A stretch of 64,000 bases of DNA from Hymenobacter jeollabukensis (GTDB lineage Bacteria; Bacteroidota; Bacteroidia; Cytophagales; Hymenobacteraceae): contig NZ_VAJM01000005.1 in the NCBI RefSeq assembly GCF_005771675.1, positions 1-64,000 on the forward strand, in the 5' to 3' direction. This document shows positions 2,771 to 57,400 of the stretch, one piece after another. The notes under the pieces are model-generated. The model was not told where the DNA came from, searched no databases, and saw nothing but the letters and a program-made list of their open reading frames with translations. Position numbers and translations under genes: made by a program. Every line of letters begins with the position of its first letter. The stretch's first letter is position 1.

Positions 2771-2825
2771 GCCGGGGGGGGAGGCGCCCCGCCCGCGCGG
2801 CCTCACTGTCCCTTCGGAATCATCC

Positions 2826-3119
2826 TTCACCGGTGAAAAACGGTTCCGAAGGGCTCAGCAGTCATCCTTCACCGGTGAAGAGGGCCTCCAAAGCCCTCAT
2901 GAAGCAATCTTCACCGGTGAAGGACGTATCCGAAGGGCTCATGGGTCATCCTTCACCGGTGCAGGGTGCCTCCGAAGGCCTCATGAGTCATCCTGCACCG
3001 GTGAAGGGTGCTTCCGAAGGCCTCATGAGTCATCCTGCACCGATGCAGATGGCATCCGAAGGCCTCATGGGGCGTCCTGCACCGGTGCAGGCATTATCCG
3101 ACGGGCGGTCTGCCTTGGC
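2826..3119. repeat. seven 42-bp tandem repeats with palindromic cores
   Basis: Seven units begin at 2826, 2868, 2910, 2952, 2994, 3036 and 3078, exactly 42 bp apart. Each opens with a 12-nt palindrome of the form TtCACCGGTGaA (cores ttcaccggtgaa, tgcaccggtgca and mixed forms) and most carry tccgaaggcctcat about 20 nt later. Because 42 is divisible by three, stop-free frames run through the array, but they lack any start context or domain. It fills the space in front of the dehydrogenase gene at 3206. It is not a CRISPR array: there are no unique spacers. Confidence 0.9.
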
Positions 3120-39801: not shown

Positions 39802-40821
39802 TTAGTATTTGTGACGTAAGGTAGGCGGCGAAGTTAGCCTCGACGATACAGTTAATTTGGTTAGTGAGGGGGGCAACAGTAGATACAAGGCCACTACTGT
39901 AAGCGTAAGCGCTAATAGTGCGCTTACCACCAGCCACCACGCGCTGGGTTCTAGCCGAGCATTGGCCAAAGTGGCTCCCCAGTCTGCCTGATCCGGCGCC
40001 AATCCTATTCCCAGAAACGCTAATGTGGTTTGCAGGGCAAGGCAGGTATTTAGGTTAAGGGGCAGCGAAGTGCGTAGGCTCGGCCACGCATTCGGTAGAA
40101 TGTGATGCCATAGTAGCCGGGCCGAGGACAAGCCCGCTGTTCTCCCCGCTTCTACATAAGGCCGATGACATAGTTGCTGCACTAATGTTCGGGTGAGCCG
40201 AGCCGTGTTAGTCCAGCAGAGCAGCGCCAGCATACCCGTCAACCACCAATCAGTGGGGGCGTGCAACGCCGTCAGGGCCAACACCAACACGAGGCGGGGT
40301 ACGGCGCCCAGCCAGGCCATGGTGCTTTGCACCAGCCAGTCCAGAGGTACTGCGACGGTGGCCGCGAAGCAATTCAGGGAATAAATAACCACCGTAGCAA
40401 GGGCTGCAGTCAGCAGCCACCAGCCAACCGCCGTGGGCTCGGAAACCAGCAATCCGGTAAAGCAGGTGAGCAAGGCAATGACGGCAGCCTGTCGTAGCCG
40501 CAAGCCGGTGTCGCCCCAATAGCCCGCGGCGGTACCAAGCAGCACACCTACAATTGAAGCTAGCAGCGCCGCGGGGACACTGACCAGCAACAACCGGCGG
40601 GCGCCCATGGCCAAATCGGCCAGAACGTCGCGGCCATAGGCGTCGGTACCTAGTAGGTGCCGGGCAGAAGGGACTTGGCTGAATCGTTCTGCGTCCAGGG
40701 GAAGAGGGTGACCCGCTGCCGAACCAAATTGGGCCCAGGCAGCGGCTGCCAGCAGCAGCAACAACCAGAGCCAGGCCCACCAGCGGCCGGCCACGCGTAG
40801 ACGCGAACGGAGCGAATTCAC
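39802..40821 (-). CDS. oligopeptide/dipeptide ABC transporter permease, OppC/DppC type
   Basis: 339 residues with about six membrane segments. The N-terminal part carries HLLGTDAYGRDVLADLAMGAR, the OppC-type signature of the second permease. The EAA loop that contacts the ATPase is present as YVEAGRTAGLSSARLLWHHILPN. The start is GTG 40821 and overlaps the stop of the first permease by four bases (GTGA). It is the last gene of the Opp-like operon. No ATP-binding subunit follows. Confidence 0.87.
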   Translation of the reverse strand: MNSLRSRLRVAGRWWAWLWLLLLLAAAAWAQFGSAAGHPLPLDAERFSQVPSARHLLGTDAYGRDVLADLAMGARRLLLVSVPAALLASIVGVLLGTAAGYWGDTGLRLRQAAVIALLTCFTGLLVSEPTAVGWWLLTAALATVVIYSLNCFAATVAVPLDWLVQSTMAWLGAVPRLVLVLALTALHAPTDWWLTGMLALLCWTNTARLTRTLVQQLCHRPYVEAGRTAGLSSARLLWHHILPNAWPSLRTSLPLNLNTCLALQTTLAFLGIGLAPDQADWGATLANARLEPSAWWLVVSALLALTLTVVALYLLLPPSLTKLTVSSRLTSPPTLRHKY

Positions 40822-41822
40822 AGCAAACGAGGGTCGACCAAGGCACTGGTGAAATCAGCCAGCAGCCAAGCCAGCAAGCGTACGCAGGCTACCAGCAGTA
40901 CGCCACCTACGAGGATGGGGACGTCGCGGGCGGCAACGGCTTCCGCCAGCAACCGGCCCATGCCTGGCAGCGCAAAAACGACCTCAACGACCAATGCCCC
41001 GGCCACTACCCCCGGTACCAAATCGGCGAGACGGGTGAGGAACACGGGCATGACGTTGGGCAACAAGTGGTGCCAACTTATCCGATGACGCGAGGCTCCT
41101 TTGGCCCGAGCTGCGGTTACATAAAGCTGGGGCGCCTGCTCACGCAATGCCGCCGCTAAGGGGAGGAACAAAGCGGGCACACTGGTGAGAGTGAGAGCTG
41201 CAACCGGGAGAACCAAATAAGGCACCATCTCCCAGGATAAGGTACCCGCAGGCGAGGCAGCGGCTGGTAAGCCGTAGGCCGGGAATAGCGGCCAGAAGTC
41301 AGGATTGGCCAGCACCAGCAGCAAGGTCATACCTACCACAAACAAGGGCAAGCTGTCTAAGAAATAGCCTGCCACCAGCAGCCAATGGTACCAGCGAGGG
41401 CGGTGTACTGCCCATTGGGCCAATAACAGCGCTGCTCCTGCACTCAATAGCAAGGCGCTGACGGTGAGCGGCAGCGTCAGGCGTAATGCTTGGCGTAGGT
41501 GCGTCGTCACGGCCATGTCATCCCGAAACGACGTACCCAAATTGCCCTGAGCCAGCTCAGTAAGCCAGGAGTGGTATTGGTTGGGCGTGCCGTGCCAGCG
41601 CCACGGCAGCAGGCGGAAGTAAAACGGGGGTGTTTGCAGGCCCAGACGTTGCTGATAACGCGCTTCGGTTGTGGCCTGCTGGCCGAATGGACTAGCCTGC
41701 TCATCGGTAAGCAACCGCGGGCCGCTGCCCGGCAGACTGCGGCTTAGCAGGAAGATAGCAGAGGCAATCAACCATGCCGTGCTCAATGCCCGCGCTGTGC
41801 GCACCAGTAATGCTCGGACCAT
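40818..41822 (-). CDS. oligopeptide/dipeptide ABC transporter permease, OppB/DppB type
   Basis: 334 residues, about six membrane segments. An N-terminal RTARALSTAWLIASAIFLLSR and the LGLQTPPFYFR / LAQGNLGTSFRDDM region are typical of OppB proteins. The EAA loop reads YVTAARAKGASRHRISWHHLLPN. It starts 4 nt after the binding-protein stop and overlaps the next gene by 4 nt, so the three genes form one operon. Confidence 0.87.
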   Translation of the reverse strand: MVRALLVRTARALSTAWLIASAIFLLSRSLPGSGPRLLTDEQASPFGQQATTEARYQQRLGLQTPPFYFRLLPWRWHGTPNQYHSWLTELAQGNLGTSFRDDMAVTTHLRQALRLTLPLTVSALLLSAGAALLLAQWAVHRPRWYHWLLVAGYFLDSLPLFVVGMTLLLVLANPDFWPLFPAYGLPAAASPAGTLSWEMVPYLVLPVAALTLTSVPALFLPLAAALREQAPQLYVTAARAKGASRHRISWHHLLPNVMPVFLTRLADLVPGVVAGALVVEVVFALPGMGRLLAEAVAARDVPILVGGVLLVACVRLLAWLLADFTSALVDPRLL

Positions 41823-41826
41823 TGGG

Positions 41827-43575
41827 TCAGGGCTGCGCCGGAGCTAGGCTGAACGCCGGCAAATCGTAACCGGGCTCCAGACCACTGGGCCGCACCTGAT
41901 CGAAGCGTCGCGACACGGCCAAGCGGTTGGGCTCGAAAAACAACGGGGTAAATGGCACCTGCTGGTACAGTAGGGTTTGCAGCCGCTGCAGCAGCCTTTT
42001 TTTGGTCACGGAGTCCTCGGTGGTGTAGAGCGTTTCGAGCAGGTGGTCCGAAGCCGCGTTGCCGAATCGGCTGCGGTTGGCCCCGCCGCGGCCAATGCTG
42101 CTGGTGTGTAGCAGCGGCCGCAGGTCGTAGGCAAAAGGGTTGCCGTAGAGCGTGCGCAGGTTCAGGTCAAATTCCCCATTGCGGCGTATCTCCGATAACT
42201 GGCCCGATTCGGTAGGGTGCAGCGTGACGGATAGCCCTACTGCGCGGGCGCTTTGCTGGAAAAGCAGGGCTATGGTTTCGAAGGTTCGGTCGCCGGCGCT
42301 GTAAAACAGCCGTAAGGACAGCGGCGTAGCCTGCTCGGGCCGGCGCCAGCCGGCCGGCGTCTGTTGCCAACCTGCTTGCCGCAGCAAGGCCGTTGCGCGC
42401 GGCGGAGAATACGCCCGCAGCGGCAAGCTGTCGTGGTAGGCCCACTTCTCGCGCGGGCTGATCAAACCGGTACTGCGCTGGCCCTGGCCGTACTGGGTGG
42501 CGCGTAGCAGCTGCTTATAATCAACCAGCAGGGCCACCGCTTGGCGGGTGCGAACATCGCGCAGCGCAGGGTGCTGCACGTTCATTTCCAGCACCGTCAC
42601 GCGGTAAGACGCGGGCGAGTAAAAACGAAACTTGGTGCTGTCGTTGGCCCGAAGACGCGCAAAGTCCGGTCCCGGCATGTGCGGGTACACATCCAGTTCA
42701 CCCCGGCGCAGCGCGAGCAATGCCGTGGCAGGATTGGGCACTACGTGAAATTCAATGCGCGCTGGATTTGCTGCCAACGCAGGCTTCCGCGGCAGAACGC
42801 TGTCGGCCCACCAGCGGGGCTTGCGCTCCAGCGTAAGTTGCTGGCCGGATTGCCAGCTGGCGAGTTGATATGGCCCGCTACCGCGCAGCGTACGCGGGTC
42901 GCGCCAACGCGAGGCTTGGTTGAATTCCTCTTGAAAAGCTCGGATGGGCGCCAGCCGCGACACCAAGCTGTCATCCTGCCGCAGCAATTGCAGCGGCACC
43001 GGGCGCAGCCGCGCCTGCGGATCGATGAGGTACTCGGGCAGGATGGGAAATTCGCCGCTGTTGTCGCGGTATTCGGGGGCGTAGCCGCGGCAAACCAGCG
43101 TAAACCGGCGCGGATCAGCGGGGTCTACTTGCACCGCCCGGATGAAACTCACCAAGCTGCGCAATCCTTCGTTAGGCAAGCCCGGACAATTCAGGACTTT
43201 AAGCGTAAACACCACGTCCTGTGCCTGAATGGGCTGGCCGTTGTCCCAGGCAGCCTGCGGATGCAAGCGGTAATGCAGGTACGTAAGCGAATCGCGCCGC
43301 TCGACAACGGGCAGTACGGCGGCTAGCCAAGGCACGTGGCGCCGGGTTGGGCCATCCACCGTCAGCAGGCTCTGGTAGAGCAGGTTGTTCGCCTGCACGG
43401 CGTACGCATTGGGCAGTGTTACCGGGTTCAGCGACTCCGGGTCGCGGGGCCAGCATACCCGCACGGTGGGGCCGCTGGCCGATTGAGGGGGAGCAGACGG
43501 TGAGCAGGCGGTGAAGCCGAGAATACCGCCGAGCAGGCCCCCGATAACGGCAGATCGGAACATGGACGGGTGCAT
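41827..43575 (-). CDS. extracellular solute-binding lipoprotein family 5 (OppA-like)
   Basis: 582 residues. Signal peptide and lipobox (GILGFTAC; Cys near 24) indicate a lipoprotein. RVCWPRDPESLNPVTLPNAYAVQANNLLY is split over the N-terminus of the family-5 fold, with the later SGPYQLASWQSGQQLTLERK and LRRGELDVYP blocks that are standard for peptide-binding proteins. It should deliver oligopeptides to the two permeases just downstream. The peptide-like gene ends 51 nt upstream on the same strand. ATG 43575 is used; ATG 43563 is possible. Confidence 0.87.
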   Translation of the reverse strand: MHPSMFRSAVIGGLLGGILGFTACSPSAPPQSASGPTVRVCWPRDPESLNPVTLPNAYAVQANNLLYQSLLTVDGPTRRHVPWLAAVLPVVERRDSLTYLHYRLHPQAAWDNGQPIQAQDVVFTLKVLNCPGLPNEGLRSLVSFIRAVQVDPADPRRFTLVCRGYAPEYRDNSGEFPILPEYLIDPQARLRPVPLQLLRQDDSLVSRLAPIRAFQEEFNQASRWRDPRTLRGSGPYQLASWQSGQQLTLERKPRWWADSVLPRKPALAANPARIEFHVVPNPATALLALRRGELDVYPHMPGPDFARLRANDSTKFRFYSPASYRVTVLEMNVQHPALRDVRTRQAVALLVDYKQLLRATQYGQGQRSTGLISPREKWAYHDSLPLRAYSPPRATALLRQAGWQQTPAGWRRPEQATPLSLRLFYSAGDRTFETIALLFQQSARAVGLSVTLHPTESGQLSEIRRNGEFDLNLRTLYGNPFAYDLRPLLHTSSIGRGGANRSRFGNAASDHLLETLYTTEDSVTKKRLLQRLQTLLYQQVPFTPLFFEPNRLAVSRRFDQVRPSGLEPGYDLPAFSLAPAQP

Positions 43576-43626
43576 TACCGCTGAGGTAAGGCTGCCCAAG
43601 ATACCTAAGTGCCGCCGAATGCGGGC

Positions 43627-43896
43627 TTATTGACCCTCGCCCCAGCCGGTGCCACCGGTCTCTATCGAAGGAGTGGTCGTCGTGGTCGTAGCCTGACCCT
43701 CTCCCCAGCCAGTGCCGCCGGTATCTGCCGAGTTGGTCGTGGTGGTAGTGGCTTGGCCTTCGCCCCAGCCGGTGCCACCGGTTTCAGTTGCAGCAGCATC
43801 AACACCTACGAAAATGGAGCTGAATTGGAAAAGGGCGGCGAGTAGGAGTTCCATCATGACCGTTGGTTTTTTGAGTGTCAAATGTTTGATTGACAC
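43627..43896 (-). CDS. small exported protein with three TGGTGWGEGQ repeats (candidate signal-peptide precursor)
   Basis: Up to 89 residues. An N-terminal basic stretch (KHLTLKK) and a hydrophobic core (MMELLLAALFQFSSIFVGV) form a signal peptide ending about VDAAA. The rest is three copies of TGGTGWGEGQ separated by linkers ATTTTTNSAD and ATTTTTTPSIE; the third copy is the C-terminus of the protein. No Cys. Start: GTG 43896 gives the charged n-region; ATG 43857 is an alternative and would leave no charges. The gene is first in line with the binding protein and permeases, 51 nt ahead. Such tandem copies separated by Thr-rich linkers are the layout of multi-copy peptide pheromone precursors (compare yeast alpha-factor); a surface-adhesive role is the alternative. 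The opposite-strand frame here is a shadow. Confidence 0.7.
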   Translation of the reverse strand: MSIKHLTLKKPTVMMELLLAALFQFSSIFVGVDAAATETGGTGWGEGQATTTTTNSADTGGTGWGEGQATTTTTTPSIETGGTGWGEGQ

Positions 43897-44216
43897 AAAT
43901 TTGGGTCATTGCCCTACCGCAGGTAAAGGAAGAAGCTTCTGCCGTTGTGACTATAACTCTTGCTTCATGCCGTGTGATGAACGCGGAAGAATACGACAAG
44001 GAAGTTCTGCTTAGCGTTACAGCCCCCGTAGATTTGCCGCTGAACGGGCACCGTCTGTGACAATCAGGTACCCAAAAGGGCGGATTTTCTACGATGCAAA
44101 GCTGCCACCAAGGAGTTGTTGCGTTCAAGGAAGGATAGAAGAGCGTTGTGACTTGTCCTTTTAGGGCAAAAAGGCAGTACAGAAAGCCCATTTAAGCGAA
44201 ACCACATAGCTAAGCC
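43897..44216. other. divergent control region of the peptide operon and the helical regulator
   Basis: Intergenic stretch between two divergent start codons. On the minus strand CAAATTTG overlaps GTG 43896 and matches TAnnTTTG at all but one position. No exact -7 box is seen for the plus-strand gene. No terminator, no gene. If the system regulates itself, its binding site should be here. Confidence 0.5.
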
Positions 44217-45755
44217 ATGAACGAGCTGGTGAATTTGGCCAAGGTTGTGACGAATCGGCGGTTGACAACGGTCCCGTTGGTTGAATTCGCCGGCCGGGGC
44301 GATGCACGCACCCGCGAGGAGGAGTTGCTGAATATTCTGCTGGCCGATGCCAATGTCAGCAACTTGCAAGTAGCCAAGCGCATGTACAACAGCGGCTCGG
44401 CCAAAAGCCAGGCCGCTGTGCGCAAGCTCAAGCAGCGCCTGCAGCATAAGCTGCTCAATCATTTGTTCTTCCTGGACCACACCGACCCGCTGCATCCGGC
44501 TTTCCGGCGCTACGAACAGCAATGCTTGGAAATGATTTACCAAGCGACGATGCTACTGCGGGAAGGCGAGCGAGTATTACTGCCGCAACTACTACGCAAG
44601 GCCGCACGGCTGGCGGCCGAGGGAGAATTCACGCCGCAGGCCATCAGCGCTTGGGACATGATGCGCGCCATCAGCATCGAAACCAACGACTATTCGCAGT
44701 ACCGCAAAAGCGTCAAACAGCTCGAGAAACTCGATAAAACCCTGTTGGTGGAACAACAGGCCCAGCACCTGTTTCGAGAAGCAAAGATGAACTTGGCCCG
44801 TTCGGTGTCGTCGCGGCGGCGGTTGCTGCAGCAGCTACCAATTATCATCGGCAAGCTGGAGGCGCTGTATAAGCAAGTGCCAACCTATAACGTGTACGAC
44901 CCGCTGCTGAAGCTGCAGCTGATTCTGCAGGAGCTGGTCGGCAACTTTGAGGAAATCATCCGCATCACCCAGGAGGCCGAAGACTTATTCGCACGGGGCA
45001 AGCTGAACCCGCGACGCTTCGATGGGCGCTTCACTAAGTTTTATAACGTATACGGGCACCTGCGGGCCCGGCGCCTGAAAGAAGGGCTGGCGGTGGCCGA
45101 GGGCTACCTGTCGGCGTTTCACCGCTCCAGCAACAACTGGTTTGTGTTTCTGGAAAACTACTACCTGCTGGCCATGCACGACGGGGACTACGCGCTGGCC
45201 GGCGACCTGCTGCGGCGGATGCAGAACAACCCGTTTGTGACCAAAATCTCGCAGCCGGCCCGGCAGCGCTGGGACTTGTTCCGGGCCTACTTGTACTTTG
45301 TGCGGCCCGAGGAAGCGGGGCTGCGGCCGCTGCACTTTGCGCAGCTGGTGCAGCGCATTCCCGACCACAGCCGCGACAAGCAGGGCTATAACGTGGCCAT
45401 TCTGATTCTGCAGTTTCTGCACTACCTGCGCGAGGGCAACATCGAGGCGCTGCTGGCGCGCCTGGAAAGCCTGCGCAAGTACGAAAGCGCCCACTTGCGC
45501 GATGCCGCCACCTTGCGCAGCCGGCTGATGTTCCGCTTGCTGCAACTGACGGTAAAAGAGAATTTCGACCCCAAGGCCTGCGAGAAAAAGGGGCAGGCAT
45601 TGTTGGGCCGGCTCATTGAAACCCCGCCGCCGGGCGAGGCTTTCGCGGAAATCGAAATCATTCCCTACGAAAGCCTCTGGCAACAGACGCTGCTGATGCT
45701 GCAGCACATGGCTGAAAAGCAGCAACAGCAGGAGCGGCTGAGGCGCGCCGGTTAG
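44217..45755 (+). CDS. large all-helical protein, candidate peptide-sensing regulator
   Basis: 512 residues, no signal peptide or membrane segments. Residues 30-95 (EEELLNILLADANVSN, then VAKRMYNSGSAKSQAAVRKL and KQRLQHKLLNHLFFLD) look like a helix-turn-helix type segment leading into a long helix. The remainder is continuous alpha-helix with about 35-40-residue periodicity (for example FYNVYGHLRARRLKEGLAVA, LLAMHDGDYALAGDLLRRMQ, LHYLREGNIEALLARLESLR), as in TPR-like solenoids. Helical solenoids with an N-terminal DNA-binding part are the layout of RRNPP peptide receptors, but I recognise no named family. It is divergent from the peptide/Opp operon, 320 nt away, and its stop codon overlaps that of the convergent next gene. 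Confidence 0.8.
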   Translation: MNELVNLAKVVTNRRLTTVPLVEFAGRGDARTREEELLNILLADANVSNLQVAKRMYNSGSAKSQAAVRKLKQRLQHKLLNHLFFLDHTDPLHPAFRRYEQQCLEMIYQATMLLREGERVLLPQLLRKAARLAAEGEFTPQAISAWDMMRAISIETNDYSQYRKSVKQLEKLDKTLLVEQQAQHLFREAKMNLARSVSSRRRLLQQLPIIIGKLEALYKQVPTYNVYDPLLKLQLILQELVGNFEEIIRITQEAEDLFARGKLNPRRFDGRFTKFYNVYGHLRARRLKEGLAVAEGYLSAFHRSSNNWFVFLENYYLLAMHDGDYALAGDLLRRMQNNPFVTKISQPARQRWDLFRAYLYFVRPEEAGLRPLHFAQLVQRIPDHSRDKQGYNVAILILQFLHYLREGNIEALLARLESLRKYESAHLRDAATLRSRLMFRLLQLTVKENFDPKACEKKGQALLGRLIETPPPGEAFAEIEIIPYESLWQQTLLMLQHMAEKQQQQERLRRAG

Positions 45756-47001: not shown

Positions 47002-47727
47002 CTAGAACTTGTTGAGGCGCTGCAGTACGTCGCGCATATAGGTTTGCCCGATGGGCAGGTGCTTGCCGTCGATGACCACGGCATTGTCGTCAATGGCCTG
47101 CACGTAGCGCAGATTGACGATGGTGGAGCGGTGAATGCGCACGAACTGCTGCGCGGGAAACTTCTCTTCCACGGCCCGCATGGTGCTGTACACGATGAGC
47201 TTCTGCTGCCCGAGCACGATGTGCACGTAGTCACCCAGGGCCTCCACGTAGTGCACGTCGTCGAACCCCACGCGCACCAGCTTGCTGTCGACTTTGACGA
47301 AGGTGTGGTCGGTGGAAGCCGGCGCGGCGGCCGCGGGCGTCGGGGCGGCCTGCGCGGTTTCGAGGGCTTTCTGGGCGGCTTTGAGGAAGCGCGCGTAGGC
47401 CACGGGCTTCACCAGGTAATCGACCACGCGGTGCTCGAAGGCGGCCACGGCGTAGTCGCGGCTGCTGGTGACGAGCACGACCATGGGCGGCTCGGTGAGG
47501 GTGTCGAGCAGGTCGAGGCCGGTCATTTCGGGCATGTCCACGTCGAGGAACAGCAGGTCGACGGGGGTGGTACGCAGGGTGGCCGCCGCCTCGATGGCAC
47601 TACTACAGGACCCGGCCGATTCGAGAAAATCGGTGTGGATAATGCAACTCTGAATAACCTGGATAGCTAGCGGGTCATCGTCGACGACGAGACAGCGCAA
47701 CGTGGTGGGAACGGCGGAGTTGGGCAT
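47002..47727 (-). CDS. LytTR-family response regulator
   Basis: 241 residues. Receiver domain 8-125 with acidic pocket VVDDD and phospho-acceptor D62 in LFLDVDMPEMTG. A linker rich in Ala/Pro leads to a LytTR DNA-binding domain from about 145 (TFVKVDSKLVRVGFDDVHYVE, QQFVRIHRSTIVNLRYVQAI). It is 36 nt downstream of the hybrid kinase gene on the same strand and is the obvious output of its phosphorelay. The -7 box at 47733-47740 lies 5 nt before the ATG. Confidence 0.93.
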   Translation of the reverse strand: MPNSAVPTTLRCLVVDDDPLAIQVIQSCIIHTDFLESAGSCSSAIEAAATLRTTPVDLLFLDVDMPEMTGLDLLDTLTEPPMVVLVTSSRDYAVAAFEHRVVDYLVKPVAYARFLKAAQKALETAQAAPTPAAAAPASTDHTFVKVDSKLVRVGFDDVHYVEALGDYVHIVLGQQKLIVYSTMRAVEEKFPAQQFVRIHRSTIVNLRYVQAIDDNAVVIDGKHLPIGQTYMRDVLQRLNKF

Positions 47728-47732
47728 AACGC

Positions 47733-47740
47733 CAAAGGTA
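47733..47740 (-). promoter_or_regulatory. -7 box immediately before the LytTR gene
   Basis: Minus strand TACCTTTG, an exact match to TAnnTTTG, is 5 nt from the ATG at 47727. It would give a transcript that starts at or within a few bases of the start codon and allows the regulator to be made without the kinase. Confidence 0.45.
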
Positions 47741-47763
47741 GCCGCCGGCTTGGAAAAAGCCAG

Positions 47764-50700
47764 TTACCCGGCGGCCGCGTCGCGGCGGCGCTGCAGCAGC
47801 GGGTACAGCTGCTGCAACTGCGCATCGGCAGTGGTAGCCTGGGCCGCCGCTTTGGGTGGCAACTGGCCCTGTTTGGCCTGTTGCTCAAGCGCATCAAGCA
47901 GCTCGTGCAGCCGGGGCAGGCCGAAATAGGCCAGCTGGCCTTTGATGCGGTGCGCGAGGCTGGCGGCCAGCGCGGCGTCGGCTGCGGCCACGGCCGCCTG
48001 CAGCTGCTCGGCCAACGGGGGCACGTCGCGCAGGAAGGTGTCGATGATCTGGGCAATGAAGGCTTCGCTGCCGAAGGCTAGTTCTTCGAGCAGGGACCAG
48101 TCCGGTGCTTCGACGTTGGCGGCTGGCGGCACCGGCACTGCTGGCGTAGCATCGGTGGCCGGCACTGACGGTAGGTTCTCGGAGGGCGGGGCGGCGGCAC
48201 GCGGCGTGGTGGCGCGGCCGGTGAAGCGGGCCAGCGTGGCGTAGAGCACGGCCGGGTCGAAGGGCTTGGGCAGGGTGTCGTTCATGCCGGCGGCCAGGGC
48301 CAGGGCGCGGTCTTCGGGCAGGGCCGAGGCGGTGAGGCCGATAATGGGCAGCGCGGCGGTATCGGGGAAGTGCAGGCGCAGCTGGCGGCTGGCCTCGTAG
48401 CCGTCCATTTCGGGCATCTGCACGTCCATCAGCACGGCGTCGAAGGCGGTGGCGGCGGCGGTTTCCACGGCCAGGCGGCCGTTGGCGGCCATGACGACCT
48501 GCACGTTCCAGGCTTCCAGGGTTTTGCGGGCCACCAGCTGATTCAGCTCGTTGTCTTCGGCCACCAGCACGCGCAAGGGCGGCGCGAAGGGCGTCAGCTC
48601 GACGGGCGCGTCGGAGGGCAGCTCGGCCGCGTCGGCCTCGGGGTAGGGCAGCTCGAAGAGGAAAGTGGAGCCCACGCCGACCTCGCTTTCCACCCAGAGG
48701 CGGCCGCCGTGCAGCTCCACCAGGTTGCGGGCAATGCTCAGACCCAGGCCGGTGCCGCCAAACTGCCGGGTGGTGCTGGTGTTGGCCTGCGAGAAGTCCT
48801 CGAAAATGGCGTCGAGCTTATCGGCCGGGATGCCGATGCCGGTGTCCTGCACCGCAAAGCGCACCCGCCATTGGTCCGCCTCCGGCCGGGCCGTCACGCG
48901 CACCGTCACGCTGCCCTGGGTGGTGAACTTGATGGCGTTGCCGATCAGGTTGACGAGCACCTGATTCAGGCGCACCGGGTCGCCCAGCACGGCCAGGGGC
49001 ACCTCGGGCGCCAGCTCCAGGCGCAGCTGCAGGCCCTTGCTGGCGGTGGCAAACTCGAACATGCGCGCCACCCGCTGCAGCAGCCCGCGCAGGCCGAACG
49101 GGGTGCTTTCCAGTGTCAGCTTGCCGGCCTCGATTTTGGAGGAGTCGAGGATGTCGTTGATGATGGTGAGCAGGTTCTGCGAGGAGCCCTGAATGGCCGC
49201 CAGGTACTCCGTCTGCTCTGTATTGGTGGGCGTGCGCTGCAGCAGGTGCGTCAGGCCGATGACGGCATTCATCGGCGTGCGGATTTCGTGGCTCATGTTG
49301 GCCAAAAACTGCGCCTTGGCCCGGCGCGAGGCCTCGGCCGCGTCGCGGGCCACCACCAGGTCGGTGTTGATCTGCTCGATGTGGGCCTTCTGCTGACGCA
49401 GTTCCTGGGTCCGCTCGCGCACCGTCAGCTCCAGCTGCAGCTTCTGGCGGCGCAGCGTGGCCTCGCGGGTGCGGATGAAGGCCCATACGGCGGCGGCGGC
49501 AGCCAGCAGCAGCAGTGCGGCAAACCACCAGGTGCGCCAGAACGGGGTGGCAATGCCGAACGACAGCCGCGTCACGGCGCTCCAAGGCGCGGCGGGGTGC
49601 AGCCGGGCCCGCACTTCCAGCACGTAGCGGCCCGCGTCGAGGCGGGGAAACTGCGCTTCGGCCAGGCGGCTGGGGCGGCTCCAGGCGTCGTGGTAGCCGC
49701 GCAAGCGGTACTGGTACTGAACTTCCGTGGCACTGGTCAGGCTGATGCCACGGAAGTCGAAGGCCACGCGGTGTAGGCCAGCCGCCAGCGTACCAATGGC
49801 TTCGGGGCGGCGGGCTTCGCCGTCGACCTCGGCCCGCGCCACGGTGAGGCCGGCCAGCGTCGGGCGCGGGAAAAGGGCCGAATCGGCGGTGCTGAGGCAG
49901 AGCAGGCCGGCGCGGGTGGCCGTCCACACGGCCAGATTATGAGCATCTAAAGCAGCCAGGGGGAGCAGGTCGCGCACCAACAGGTTGGCGGGCGAAGTCA
50001 CCGGCACGAAGCGCTTGGTCGCCGGATGAAAGGCGCTCAGACCATTACGATGCACGACCAGTAGCTGGTCGGGGTAGAAACGATTAGGAGCGTAGCGCGG
50101 GTCGTAGGTGCCGTGCGGGGCCTGGCCGTACCGGAAACGCGCCAGGGCGTAACAGTACATTGATGGCAAACCCTGGGCGCCGGTGTACTGGCGTAATTTG
50201 CCCCGTTCATAGCAAAACAGGCCCGCGCCCTCGGTCCCAATCCAGACGCGGCCGGCGCTGTCCTGGTCCAGGGCGCTGACGTCGAGGGCGCCGCTGGGGA
50301 AGCGGTGGTAGGCAAACCGCCCGCGCTGCCATACCGCCAACCCGGTGTCGTGGGTGCCGAACCACACGCGGCCTTCCCGGTCGCAGAGCAGGCTGTAAAT
50401 GGTGTTGTGCAGCAGGCCGTTGGCGGTGGTATAATGCTGGGCGGGCTGGCGGGCGTCGGCGGGCAGGTAATAAGCGCCGTCGAGAGCGGTACCCACCCAC
50501 AGGCTGCCGTCGGGCATGGCGGCCAAGGCAGTGGCGCGCAGGTTAGCGGGCAGACGCGGGAGGCGTTGCCAGTCGCCGCCGGGGCGCGTCAGCTCCCACA
50601 CGCCCGCGCCGTCGGTGGCTACGCGGTAGCGCCCGGCCGGCCGCAGCGCGTCTTCGATGGCGGTAACCGGCGCCTGGGCAGGCAGCGGCGCCTCGGCAAC

Positions 50701-51396
50701 CGATGGGCCGGACAATGGGTGAGCTACCGCGTCGGGCCGCAGCAAGCGCAACTGGCCGGCGGCCGTACCCGCGTAGGCGCTCCAGCCCGCGGTGCCGAGC
50801 ACGGTGGGGGCGGAAAAGCTGGGCGGCTGGTAGGGATAGAGCGTAATGTGCCGGTCGGAGTGCCGCCACAGACCCTGCCCGGCCGTGCCCAGCCAGGCGT
50901 TGCCTTCCCGGTCTTCGAGCATGCACGTAATGTCCGGGACTTCCGTCAGGCGAAAACGGCGCTGATAATGATTGATGGCAGCCGTGTCAGCCGCCGGCAG
51001 GCCCGTGCGCGTCCGGAACCCGGCCGGTAACCCCGCGCCCTTGCGGACCGTCATAAACCGCTGCCCGTCCCAGCGCGACACGCCGCCCTGGTAGTGATTC
51101 ACCCACAGCGTGTGCGTGGTTGAATCTTCAAAGAGCCGCGTGGCAAAGTCCTCGGCCAGGCCCTGCCGGGTGGTGAAGGTGACGAATTCGGTGCCGTCGT
51201 AGCGCACCAGGCCCTCGGCGGTGGCCACCCAGAGGGAGCCCTGCCGGTCCTGGTGCAGGGCGTAGACGAAGCTGGGCGCGAAGCCCTCGGCCGGGCCGAA
51301 CTGCTTTAGCCAGTGCCGCTGCTGGGCGCGGGCCGGCATTAGCACGGCCCAAAGCAGCCCAATCAACAGCCCAAACCGCGCGCAGAAACGAATCAT
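47764..51396 (-). CDS. hybrid two-component sensor kinase with propeller sensor, receiver and Hpt domains
   Basis: 1210 residues. Signal/anchor 1-24. Periplasmic sensor about 30-620: two-component regulator propeller repeats (YALHQDRQGSLWVATAEGLV, MLEDREGNAWLGTAGQGLW, LLCDREGRVWFGTHDTGLAV, ALDQDSAGRVWIGTEGAGLF) and a Y_Y_Y domain (YQYRLRGYHDAWS). A transmembrane segment (about 635-655) leads to HisKA (H703 in MSHEIRTPMNAV), HATPase_c (GNAIKF, DTGIGIP, GTGLGLSIARNL), a receiver (D991 in VLMDVQMPEMDG) and a C-terminal Hpt domain (H1149 in AHRIKGQLAYFG). It thus lacks the AraC-type HTH of classical HTCS proteins and should pass phosphate through Hpt to the LytTR regulator next door. The ligand is unknown. 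Confidence 0.93.
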   Translation of the reverse strand: MIRFCARFGLLIGLLWAVLMPARAQQRHWLKQFGPAEGFAPSFVYALHQDRQGSLWVATAEGLVRYDGTEFVTFTTRQGLAEDFATRLFEDSTTHTLWVNHYQGGVSRWDGQRFMTVRKGAGLPAGFRTRTGLPAADTAAINHYQRRFRLTEVPDITCMLEDREGNAWLGTAGQGLWRHSDRHITLYPYQPPSFSAPTVLGTAGWSAYAGTAAGQLRLLRPDAVAHPLSGPSVAEAPLPAQAPVTAIEDALRPAGRYRVATDGAGVWELTRPGGDWQRLPRLPANLRATALAAMPDGSLWVGTALDGAYYLPADARQPAQHYTTANGLLHNTIYSLLCDREGRVWFGTHDTGLAVWQRGRFAYHRFPSGALDVSALDQDSAGRVWIGTEGAGLFCYERGKLRQYTGAQGLPSMYCYALARFRYGQAPHGTYDPRYAPNRFYPDQLLVVHRNGLSAFHPATKRFVPVTSPANLLVRDLLPLAALDAHNLAVWTATRAGLLCLSTADSALFPRPTLAGLTVARAEVDGEARRPEAIGTLAAGLHRVAFDFRGISLTSATEVQYQYRLRGYHDAWSRPSRLAEAQFPRLDAGRYVLEVRARLHPAAPWSAVTRLSFGIATPFWRTWWFAALLLLAAAAAVWAFIRTREATLRRQKLQLELTVRERTQELRQQKAHIEQINTDLVVARDAAEASRRAKAQFLANMSHEIRTPMNAVIGLTHLLQRTPTNTEQTEYLAAIQGSSQNLLTIINDILDSSKIEAGKLTLESTPFGLRGLLQRVARMFEFATASKGLQLRLELAPEVPLAVLGDPVRLNQVLVNLIGNAIKFTTQGSVTVRVTARPEADQWRVRFAVQDTGIGIPADKLDAIFEDFSQANTSTTRQFGGTGLGLSIARNLVELHGGRLWVESEVGVGSTFLFELPYPEADAAELPSDAPVELTPFAPPLRVLVAEDNELNQLVARKTLEAWNVQVVMAANGRLAVETAAATAFDAVLMDVQMPEMDGYEASRQLRLHFPDTAALPIIGLTASALPEDRALALAAGMNDTLPKPFDPAVLYATLARFTGRATTPRAAAPPSENLPSVPATDATPAVPVPPAANVEAPDWSLLEELAFGSEAFIAQIIDTFLRDVPPLAEQLQAAVAAADAALAASLAHRIKGQLAYFGLPRLHELLDALEQQAKQGQLPPKAAAQATTADAQLQQLYPLLQRRRDAAAG

Positions 51397-54447: not shown

Positions 54448-57400
54448 ATGCGTTTTTCCCTCCTGCTGATACCCTTCTGGCTTTTGCTGATGGTGCTGCC
54501 CTCCAACGCTTCCGCCCCGCCCGCCGGTGGCCCCTACGATGCCCAGTGGAAAAAAATCGATGCGCTGCTGGCCAAGGACCAGACCGAAGCGGCGCAGAAG
54601 CTGGTGCTCGACATTTACCAGAAAGCCCGAGCTGCCCGGCACACCGCCGACTACGTGCGCGCCCTGACCTACCGGCTGCACATCCTGGAGGAGCGCGAAG
54701 AAGACGCCGACGAGAAAGGCATCCAACTGCTCGAAGCCGACCTGCCCGCGGCCACGTTCCCGGCTCGCCCGCTGCTGCACTCCCTGCTGGCCGAGCACTA
54801 CCACCAGTACCTTCGCCAGAACCGCTACCGCCTCTACGACCGCACCGCCGTGGCCCAACCCGCGCCGGAGCCAGCTTCAGACCCGAGTAACGACCCCAAC
54901 CGCGCCGATATAGCCACCTGGGATGCCGCCCGCCTGGCCGCCCAGGTGGTGCGCCACTACCGCGCCTCGGTGGAAACCGACGCCGCCCGCCAGCAGCAGA
55001 CCACGCTGCGCGAGCTGGGCCGCCTCGCCACCCCTGCCGATGCCGCCGGCGCCGCGCTGCGCCCCACGCTCTATGATTTGCTGACCCACCGCGCCATCGA
55101 GGGGCTGAACGACGACGAGCTGTACCTGACCAAGCCCGCCCAGCAGTTCCGCTTCACCGACCCCAAGCTGCTCGGCCCCGACGCGGAGTTTCTGGCCCTG
55201 CCGCTCACCGCCCCGGCCGCCGACTCGCTCAACGGCCCCTGGCACGCCCTGCGCCTCTGGCAGCAGCTCACGCGCTTTCATCAGGGCGGCACCCCGGCCG
55301 CCCGCGCCGACGTGGAACGGCGGCGCCTCGCCTTCGTGTATCAGCACGCCGCTTTCCCCAACAAGCACACTGCCTACGACGCGGCCCTGCGCCGCGCCCA
55401 GGGGGCCTACGAAGCCCTGCCCGCCTGGGCTGATTTTCAGGCCGACCGGGCCGAGCTGGCCCAGCGCCGCAACCAGTTGACGCAAGCCGCCGAGCTGGCC
55501 AAGGCCGCCGGGCAGCGCTTCCCCAAATCGGTGGGGGCGGGGCGGGCCCAGCAGCTGCTGAACCAACTGGAGCGGCCCGAACTGAGCGTGCAGACCCAGG
55601 AAGTGCAGCTGCCCGGGCAGGCCATGCTGCTCAGCGTGCAGTACCGCAACCTCACCCGCGCCCACGGCTTTGCCTGGCGCATTCCGGCCGCGGCGGTGCT
55701 GCGCGAAGCCACCGGCCAGCGCGGCACCGAGCTGCCCAAAGCCTACGCCCGCCAGCTGGCCGCCAAGCCCGCCGCCGAGTGGGCCCTGGCCCTGCCCGGC
55801 CCCGCCGACTACAAAAGCCACCGCGCCGAGCTGGCCGGCCCCGTACTACCTGCCGGGCACTACCTGGTCGTCATCAGCACCGCCGACAGCCAGCCGACCA
55901 AAACCCGCGCGGGCGTGACGACCACCTACGCCTTCGTGTCGGTGAGCGAGCTGGCGGCGGTACACCGCGCCGCGCCGGCCGGCGGCACCGACCTCTGGAC
56001 CCTGAACCGCCGCACGGGCCAGCCCAACGGCGGCGTACAGGTGCAGCCCTGGTACCAACTCTACGACAACGGCAAGTGGCAGTACGCCGCCGGTCCGGCC
56101 CAGCCCACGGCCGCCGACGGCCACCTCACCGTGCCCGCCGACCAGGGCCAGCGCCGCTACATGCGCGCCGTGCTGCTCAGCCAGGGCCGCGACTCGCTGG
56201 TGCTGGCCGAGGGCTTCAACGGCTACCGCCCGCCCCTGGAAGCGGAGCCGCGCGTGCCGCGCCGGGCGTTCATTTATACCGACCGCGCCATCTACCGCCC
56301 CGGCCAGACCTTGTACTTCAAGGGCATTGTGGTGCAGCCGCAGAACGGGCGCAGCGCCGTGGTGAAAAGCCTGCCGGTGCGCCTGCGCCTGCTCGACGTG
56401 AACAGCCAGCAGGTGCTGGAGCTGCCCTTTACCACCTCCGATTACGGCTCCTTCCACGGCGAGCTGACCTTGCCCGGCGGCCTGCTCAACGGCGAAATGC
56501 GGCTGGTGGCGGTAACCCAAGACGGCGGCAACGACGAGCAGCTCGGCGACCAGGGCTTCGCGGTGGAAGACTACAAACGCCCGACCTTCTTCGTGACCCT
56601 CGACCCGGTGCTGGGCACGCCCAAGCTCGGCGACACGCTGTCGGTGCGCGGCACGGCCACGGCCTACGCCGGTCCGGCCGTGGATGGGGCCACGGTGCAG
56701 TACCGGGTGGTGCGCCGCACGGTGTGGCCGATGTTTGGCTGGCTGGCGCTGGACTTCGGCTTCGGAGGGGAGCGGGGCGGCGGTGGCCGGCCCTACCTGC
56801 CTGGCCGCGGCGGCGAGCAGCAGATTGCCAGCGGCACGACCGAAACCGACGCGCAGGGCCATTTCCGCATCAGCTTCACCGCTACTGCGCCCGACGAAAC
56901 GCTGAACGACGACCCCAACCCCGACGACGAGGGTTACTGGCCGCGCCCGGGCCGGCCGACCTACGTGTTCGACGTGACGGCCGACGTGACCGACCCCAAC
57001 GGCGAAACCCGCTCGGCCCAGCGCGGCGTGAGTTTGGGCGGCGCCCCGCTCAACCTCACGCTGAGCGGCCCCCGCGAAGTCAATCAGCAAGAGCCCGAGG
57101 GCTTCACCCTGCGCAGCCAGAACGCCACCGGTGAAACCGTGCCCGCCGCCGGCACCGTGCGCCTCTACCAGCTCACGCCGCCCGCCCGGGTGCTGCACCC
57201 GCGCTTCGGCCCGCGCCCCGACCAGCCCGGCCTGTCCCGCGAGGAGCACGCCCAACTGTTTCCGCACGAGCCCTGGCTGCGCGAAGCCGACGCCGATACC
57301 TGGCCCAAGCGCCTGGTGGGCGAGTGGCCCTTCGACACCAAGCAAACCGGCGCCCTGCCCGAGGTGGCCAAGGCCCTGGCCGCCCAGGCGCCCGGAGCCT

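Follow-up and report, generated by a model that had tools for sequence, protein, structure and literature searches.

Can a gene-encoded peptide pheromone be exported, processed and taken back into the cytoplasm by a bacterium that has an outer membrane? In the sources consulted (PMC10075063, PMC9765709, PMC12700828), re-imported pheromones of this kind are described as a Gram-positive trait and the RRNPPA family is described in Bacillota (Firmicutes). The question is raised by a locus within the first 64,000 nucleotides of contig NZ_VAJM01000005.1 of Hymenobacter jeollabukensis (Bacteroidota), a stretch referred to here as the window and taken from a genome of 6.18 Mb in 27 contigs. A small gene with three copies of the unit TGGTGWGEGQ (the precursor) heads a minus-strand operon that continues with a family-5 peptide-binding lipoprotein (the binding protein) and OppB- and OppC-type permeases, and the gene of a 512-residue helical protein (the candidate receptor, for brevity the receptor) is transcribed divergently on the plus strand. 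An earlier sequence-only reading had claimed both the operon layout and the divergent helical protein; the former was borne out by open reading frames (ORFs), spacings and Pfam matches, the latter by ORF coordinates and a structure model. The results presented below make it probable that the locus encodes a self-contained export-import peptide-signalling circuit, RRNPPA-like in its working but not shown to be RRNPPA kin.

Conservation of the gene set

A receptor homologue is found in all eight genomes of the genus and in 193 of the 200 family genomes sampled, and a profile search across the order recovered it from 82 of 291 sampled genomes (family members included), representing 27 of 115 genera. 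Two sets of loci were analysed. The 80-locus set corresponds to the best 80 of 456 matches to the receptor, all of them in Bacteroidota (Hymenobacter, Solirubrum, Adhaeribacter, Rhodocytophaga and Botryobacter), and the 68-locus set comprises seven loci of the genus, the paralogue of the source genome itself and 60 loci of the wider family; the two sets share species, meaning that their counts are not additive.

In the seven other genomes of the genus the gene order is always ftsH, oppC, oppB, binding protein, gap and receptor, with the gap holding a small ORF that has the same kind of start and end. A precursor was recognised at 78 loci of the 80-locus set. Among the 71 loci with at least 6 kb of upstream sequence it was present in 69, and the binding protein, OppB and OppC in 67; ftsH, which served as the yardstick for ordinary neighbour conservation, was present in only six. 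Receptor homologues do recur beside a peptide gene and Opp genes, as the sequence-only reading had anticipated. In the 68-locus set a uniform detector found the precursor at 65 loci, and tblastn found the binding protein and both permeases at 62. Because the same detector reported a precursor-like ORF in just 24 of 861 random stretches of this set, the presence of the precursor beside the receptor can be taken not to be due to chance.

The three loci of the 68-locus set without a precursor are two second receptor copies (L013 and L060) and one at a contig end (L073). Both precursor and importer are missing at L137 and L174, which are likewise second copies, the other copy in the same species being complete, and at L159 and L164 a precursor is present and the binding-protein gene lies reversed beside a second receptor. 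L013 belongs to the source genome (contig C8, around position 55033), where a divergent binding protein and receptor pair (about 59% identical) stands without a precursor and without linked OppB/OppC; it is possibly an orphan or eavesdropping receptor. At L098, L100, L101 and L102, in genomes of another genus, a second receptor gene follows directly in tandem after the first.

In the seven family genomes without a receptor, the only binding protein is a remote paralogue with about 25% identity and an E-value no better than 1e-9. All five receptor-bearing controls keep a dedicated one (43-48% identity) beside the receptor. Since none of the former retains the dedicated protein and all of the latter have both, receptor and dedicated binding protein are lost together.

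This behaviour bears on two alternative explanations. The repeat protein could be a small protein of the cell surface or a structural one, linked to the other genes for historical reasons, the idea to which we give least credence. Gly/Thr-rich repeats are frequent in surface proteins and the sole Pfam trace in the precursor is a glue-protein model under its cut-off, but the linkage outlasts the neighbour turnover measured by ftsH, receptor and binding protein disappear together, and 21 of 79 precursors (the window copy plus the 78 from the 80-locus set) carry a single unit. It is also very improbable that the precursor yields an antimicrobial or modified product, akin to a ribosomally synthesised and post-translationally modified peptide (RiPP), with the importer and helical protein providing uptake, immunity or control. 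The repeated cores and the Gly-rich units with Asp/Glu behind them do resemble those of some RiPP precursors; yet no recurrent modifying enzyme was seen beside the genes (in neighbourhoods queried with the window genes only), neither precursor nor helical protein had a match in PHROGs, PADLOC or NCBIfam, and presence in nearly the whole family is unlike a bacteriocin locus.

Selection on the peptide unit

Adjacent copies within precursors were compared over a core of eight codons, from five before the Trp to two after it; the copies were aligned on the Trp and filtered on the residue before it, so that conservation at these two positions is partly by construction. Core codons showed 582 synonymous against 17 non-synonymous differences and flanking codons 348 against 526, and the same DNA read in two shifted frames gave synonymous to non-synonymous ratios of 13:597 and 71:544. 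At least one core difference was present in 52 of the 58 multi-copy precursors, and only five (L124, L126, L133, L169 and L177) had any that was non-synonymous. In the window precursor the counts were seven to zero in the core and four to six in the flanks. Given the contrast of the core with flanks and shifted frames, the unit can be regarded as a translated, functionally constrained peptide, uniform within a precursor and changing between species. The conservation of the peptide frame, on which the proposal of the sequence-only reading depended, is in this way upheld by strong purifying selection.

The precursor and its units

The precursor of the window probably starts at the ATG at 43857 (76 residues) and not at the GTG at 43896 given in the ORF list, because homologues begin with M[LIF]EL. 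Across the 79 precursors an M-[LIF]-[EN]-L start leads into a hydrophobic stretch, which has Q11 in 75 of them; a variable linker rich in Thr, Ser and Pro and units of the G-x-x-G-W type complete the architecture. Candidates were selected partly on a hydrophobic start and a Trp, so this shared architecture is partly by construction, and precursors are truncated where a locus reaches the end of its contig (as at L149, L158 and L166). The start codon is ATG in 63 and GTG in 16. The unit is Gly-rich and Trp-centred, occurs in 1-18 copies per precursor (more than one in 58 of 79) and differs in sequence between species, as illustrated by GGTGWGEGQ, GGNGWGETH, GGGSWGEGQ, HGTSGWGDGY, HGNGGWTGI and GGTGNWDTKD. 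In 38 of 79 precursors the frame stops three or four residues past the last Trp. The 60-bp repeat array of the window (43630-43782) was found independently by TRF.

More copies have also been reached by separate routes. In Adhaeribacter soli (L147), three single-unit precursor genes stand in tandem instead of repeats inside one gene, and in genome G181 a second receptor (L074) is accompanied by its own precursor, the unit of which (IGDSGWGHD) differs from the main one; this pair is a candidate for a second, separate channel in one cell.

These features are relevant to another possibility, namely that the circuit operates within one cell: cleavage of the peptide in the periplasm and its return to the cytoplasm would serve to keep time or to report on proteolysis in the envelope, with no communication between cells. 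Such a scheme seems rather unlikely. It would fit with a binding protein and OppBC placed at the inner membrane, with a conserved set that includes no outer-membrane transporter, and with a hydrophobic leader free of basic residues that could anchor the precursor in the membrane. Nevertheless, units that vary between species yet are identical within a precursor are what is expected of private cell-cell signals, and peptides of about 8-10 residues could pass porins.

The candidate receptor

The receptor model obtained with AlphaFold2 from 66 sequences (pLDDT 89.2, pTM 0.84) presents a low-confidence loop (16-27), three helices within 33-85 (33-43, 49-57 and 62-85), a solenoid built of paired helices, and a last helix at the C-terminus. 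When compared by Foldseek with the PDB, its best matches were solenoid and TPR proteins including MalT domain III (50 best of 1278), with no match at E <= 0.001 among these or among 50 of 336 viral ones. Pfam matches to TPR models were weak, with at most 11 of 66 members hit by any one model, and the best match to PDB sequences was a designed protein (E 0.47). The receptor is predicted with confidence to be a TPR-like helical solenoid, and the "solenoid-like remainder" of the sequence-only reading finds support in both the model and the Foldseek matches.

Alignment of 36 sequences revealed 29 invariant residues, including N307, W308, E313, W352, K388, N392, Q399, K421, Y422, R434 and, at the C-terminus, P483-Y484-E485 with W488. 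Regarding DNA binding, no helix-turn-helix (HTH) family reached the E 0.001 standard over the receptor members among the 25 Pfam families listed; Trans_reg_C and HTH_RNase_II matched one member each. The N-terminal 120 residues modelled separately gave a pLDDT of 75.9 and a pTM of 0.55.

Promoter and candidate operator

Of 69 regions upstream of the precursor entered for alignment, 67 could be anchored (L109 and L131 could not), the four TTTG positions being fixed by the anchoring itself. The -7-like box, in which A at -3 is invariant, precedes the start codon by 30 to 59 nt; about 20 nt before it there is a TTTCCTTT-like box with invariant C, T and T, preceded in turn by a GTCA box. At the inverted repeat, a mean of 3.87 of six pairs are complementary, compared with at most 2.63 when the frame of comparison is slid. 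A 25-nt element (up to three mismatches allowed) occurs a single time in the source genome and once in five of 12 other receptor-bearing genomes, always at the locus, some 325-350 nt ahead of the receptor gene, and is found in none of the seven receptor-less genomes. Its single occurrence at this locus suggests that it may serve the control of the operon itself.

Layout of the locus and neighbouring features

The features of the locus are listed in Table 1. On the minus strand, oppC and oppB overlap by 4 nt, oppB is separated from the binding-protein gene by 4 nt, and the latter from the precursor stop by 51 nt. A lipobox-like LGFTAC was read by eye at the N-terminus of the binding protein. 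The receptor shares 95% identity with the copy of Hymenobacter edaphi, to which the source genome is close.

Table 1. Features of the candidate peptide-signalling locus in the window (positions on the forward strand)
Feature	Position	Strand	Remarks
OppC-type permease	39802..40821	-	GTG start, GTGA overlap with oppB; BPD_transp_1 E 1.2e-16
OppB-type permease	40818..41822	-	BPD_transp_1 E 1.4e-25
Family-5 peptide-binding lipoprotein (dedicated importer subunit)	41827..43575	-	SBP_bac_5 E 3.8e-58 (Pfam)
Multi-copy peptide precursor	43627..43857	-	Hydrophobic leader, Thr-rich linkers, three TGGTGWGEGQ units; homologues and codon-level selection
Unit copy 3, TGGTGWGEGQ, precursor C-terminus	43630..43659	-	Direct reading
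Unit copy 2, TGGTGWGEGQ	43693..43722	-	Direct reading
Unit copy 1, TGGTGWGEGQ	43753..43782	-	Direct reading
Inverted repeat GTGTCA-N10-TGACAC by the -7-like box, candidate operator	43875..43896	-	
Conserved precursor promoter region	43875..43951	-	GTCAC..., CTTCCTTT, CAAATTTG -7-like box, inverted repeat; 67 upstream regions aligned
512-residue helical protein, candidate cytosolic peptide receptor/regulator	44217..45755	+	Homologues in family, AlphaFold2

The best NCBIfam matches of the importer components are nickel_nikA for the binding protein (4.9e-32), Opp2B for the OppB-type permease (3.3e-39) and Opp2C for the OppC-type permease (7.5e-38, far under the equivalog cut-off). Although all of them lie far under their cut-offs, the nickel binder NikA and nickel-type permeases bring to mind a peptide that scavenges a metal or nutrient and is fetched back by the importer. 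This is highly improbable, considering that the constant part of the unit is made of Gly and Trp, that His is confined to some species and Cys to 15 of 79 precursors, and that the set always includes a helical protein devoid of enzymatic or transport domains.

No Opp ATPase gene is among those linked at the locus. A single place in the source genome, an unlinked 700-residue open frame, shows two oligo_HPY matches, which makes it the candidate Opp ATPase, possibly a fused OppD-OppF. Neither the helical protein nor the precursor was assigned to a family by Pfam, NCBIfam, PHROGs or PADLOC, and the glue-protein trace in the precursor, with E 0.0076 and a score of 16.4 bits where the cut-off is 31, was rejected as a Thr-rich low-complexity match. 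Downstream of the receptor (47002-51396) there are genes for a LytTR-type response regulator and a hybrid histidine kinase. They were considered as targets of the receptor and judged to occur at too few loci to belong to the set (47 and 48, respectively, of the 78 loci of the 80-locus set with more than 5 kb downstream); they are a possible partner if the receptor acts in a Rap-like manner. Elsewhere in the window, at 2820-3106, overlapping open frames contain a 42-bp sequence repeated imperfectly six to seven times, with TTCACCGGTGAA-type palindromes.

Proposed circuit

In the mechanism that we favour, the leader would take the precursor across the inner membrane and proteolysis would release units of about 8-10 residues, which the binding protein and OppBC, powered by an ATPase encoded elsewhere, would return to the cytoplasm. 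There the peptide would bind within the solenoid of the helical protein, and the loaded or unloaded receptor would exert positive or negative feedback at the promoter of the precursor, for which the inverted repeat is the probable site, and would act on further targets as well. Species-specific units would constitute private dialects. Alternatively, the target of the receptor may be a partner protein, as in the case of Rap.

Several observations weigh against this signalling circuit and temper our confidence in it. Communication between cells requires the outer membrane to be crossed twice. Lys or Arg occurs within the first 20 residues in only four of 79 precursors, unlike in Sec-exported pheromones, so that the leader is not a canonical Sec signal; the "small exported protein" of the sequence-only reading holds as a small repeat protein with a conserved hydrophobic leader, but no known export route is apparent for it. 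As for the receptor, no RRNPPA structure appeared among the 50 best of 1278 PDB Foldseek matches and no AimR among 50 of 336 viral ones. Foldseek found no match below E 2.0 and no DNA-binding fold for the N-terminal 120 residues, which leaves the DNA-binding role once suggested for this three-helix segment unsupported. Co-variation between receptor and unit beyond phylogeny is weak (best partial r 0.22; partial Mantel, 64 pairs, without significance test). The exact GTGTCA-N10-TGACAC follows the -7-like box at only 19 of 67 loci, window included, no compensatory pair changes were seen in the repeat across the 67 loci, and the 25-nt element is absent, at up to three mismatches, from seven of the 12 receptor-bearing genomes. 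Duplicate receptors stand without a precursor at L013, L060, L137 and L174. Finally, among 20 loci from other families, a recognisable binding protein and permeases are found only at L214, in a species with a precursor ending in CAIGWDDND; L213 has a precursor ending in NGGWVDKDVKK and no importer, L221, L229 and L230 have only suggestive small ORFs with hydrophobic starts, and no precursor was recognised at the other 15. Because most loci outside the family are without a recognisable precursor or importer, the receptor family has other contexts too.

Comparison with known systems

The locus shares with RRNPPA systems (Rap/Phr, NprR/NprX, PlcR/PapR, Rgg/SHP, PrgX/cCF10 and AimR/AimP) a small precursor adjacent to a cytosolic-looking TPR-like receptor, an Opp-type importer, a processed unit often at the precursor C-terminus and a helical N-terminal part ahead of the solenoid. 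It differs from these Bacillota systems in belonging to a phylum with an outer membrane, in a receptor that neither sequence nor the Foldseek matches listed identify as a homologue, in having the binding protein and permeases in the precursor's own operon, in a leader that is acidic or neutral instead of basic, and in up to 18 near-identical units. In terms of what defines the family, the adjacent propeptide gene is there (69 of 71 and 65 of 68 loci), recognisable homology was not found (Pfam, NCBIfam, PDB sequences and the Foldseek matches listed), and no Bacillota host occurs among the loci of the best 80 of 456 matches. The best supported view is that the circuit works in an RRNPPA-like way and that family membership fails on recognisable homology and taxon. 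The "Bacteroidota analogue" of the sequence-only reading stands on genetic and evolutionary grounds (linkage, selection and co-loss), but homology to RRNPP receptors was not found.

The precursor also resembles that of the yeast alpha-factor, in which one short pheromone is repeated in tandem, with spacers, behind a leader; the yeast system is eukaryotic and differs in relying on a G-protein-coupled receptor at the cell surface, without an importer. The nearest parallel to the repeats is provided by tandemly duplicated Phr propeptides (PMC11343458), which also hold several pheromone copies per precursor, with conservation within the copies and variation between them. These have two copies, often non-identical, in contrast with up to 18 nearly identical ones here, and their Rap/Phr proteins are unlike this receptor in sequence. 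According to PMC9765709, RRNPPA receptors carry an N-terminal HTH DNA-binding domain or, in Rap and NprR, a three-helix bundle. In the same phylum, a 2026 review (PMC13419125) names N-acyl-cyclolysines as signals of Bacteroidota, these being small molecules and not gene-encoded peptides. A description of a locus such as the present one was not found among the papers listed in the literature searched, where coverage of subscription journals and preprints was thin.

Significance

Our judgement is evenly balanced on a broader proposal, that of an independently evolved imported-peptide pheromone system in a Gram-negative phylum, with alpha-factor-like precursors carrying 1-18 species-specific copies of GG-x-GW type, a dedicated importer in the same operon and a new family of solenoid receptors, present in almost all of the Hymenobacter family and extending to other Cytophagales. 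If true, export-import signalling would work behind an outer membrane, using receptors of a new family, and the evolution of signal specificity could be studied on about 80 natural peptide-receptor pairs. As the unit sequences can be read from the genomes, direct testing with synthetic peptides would be possible.

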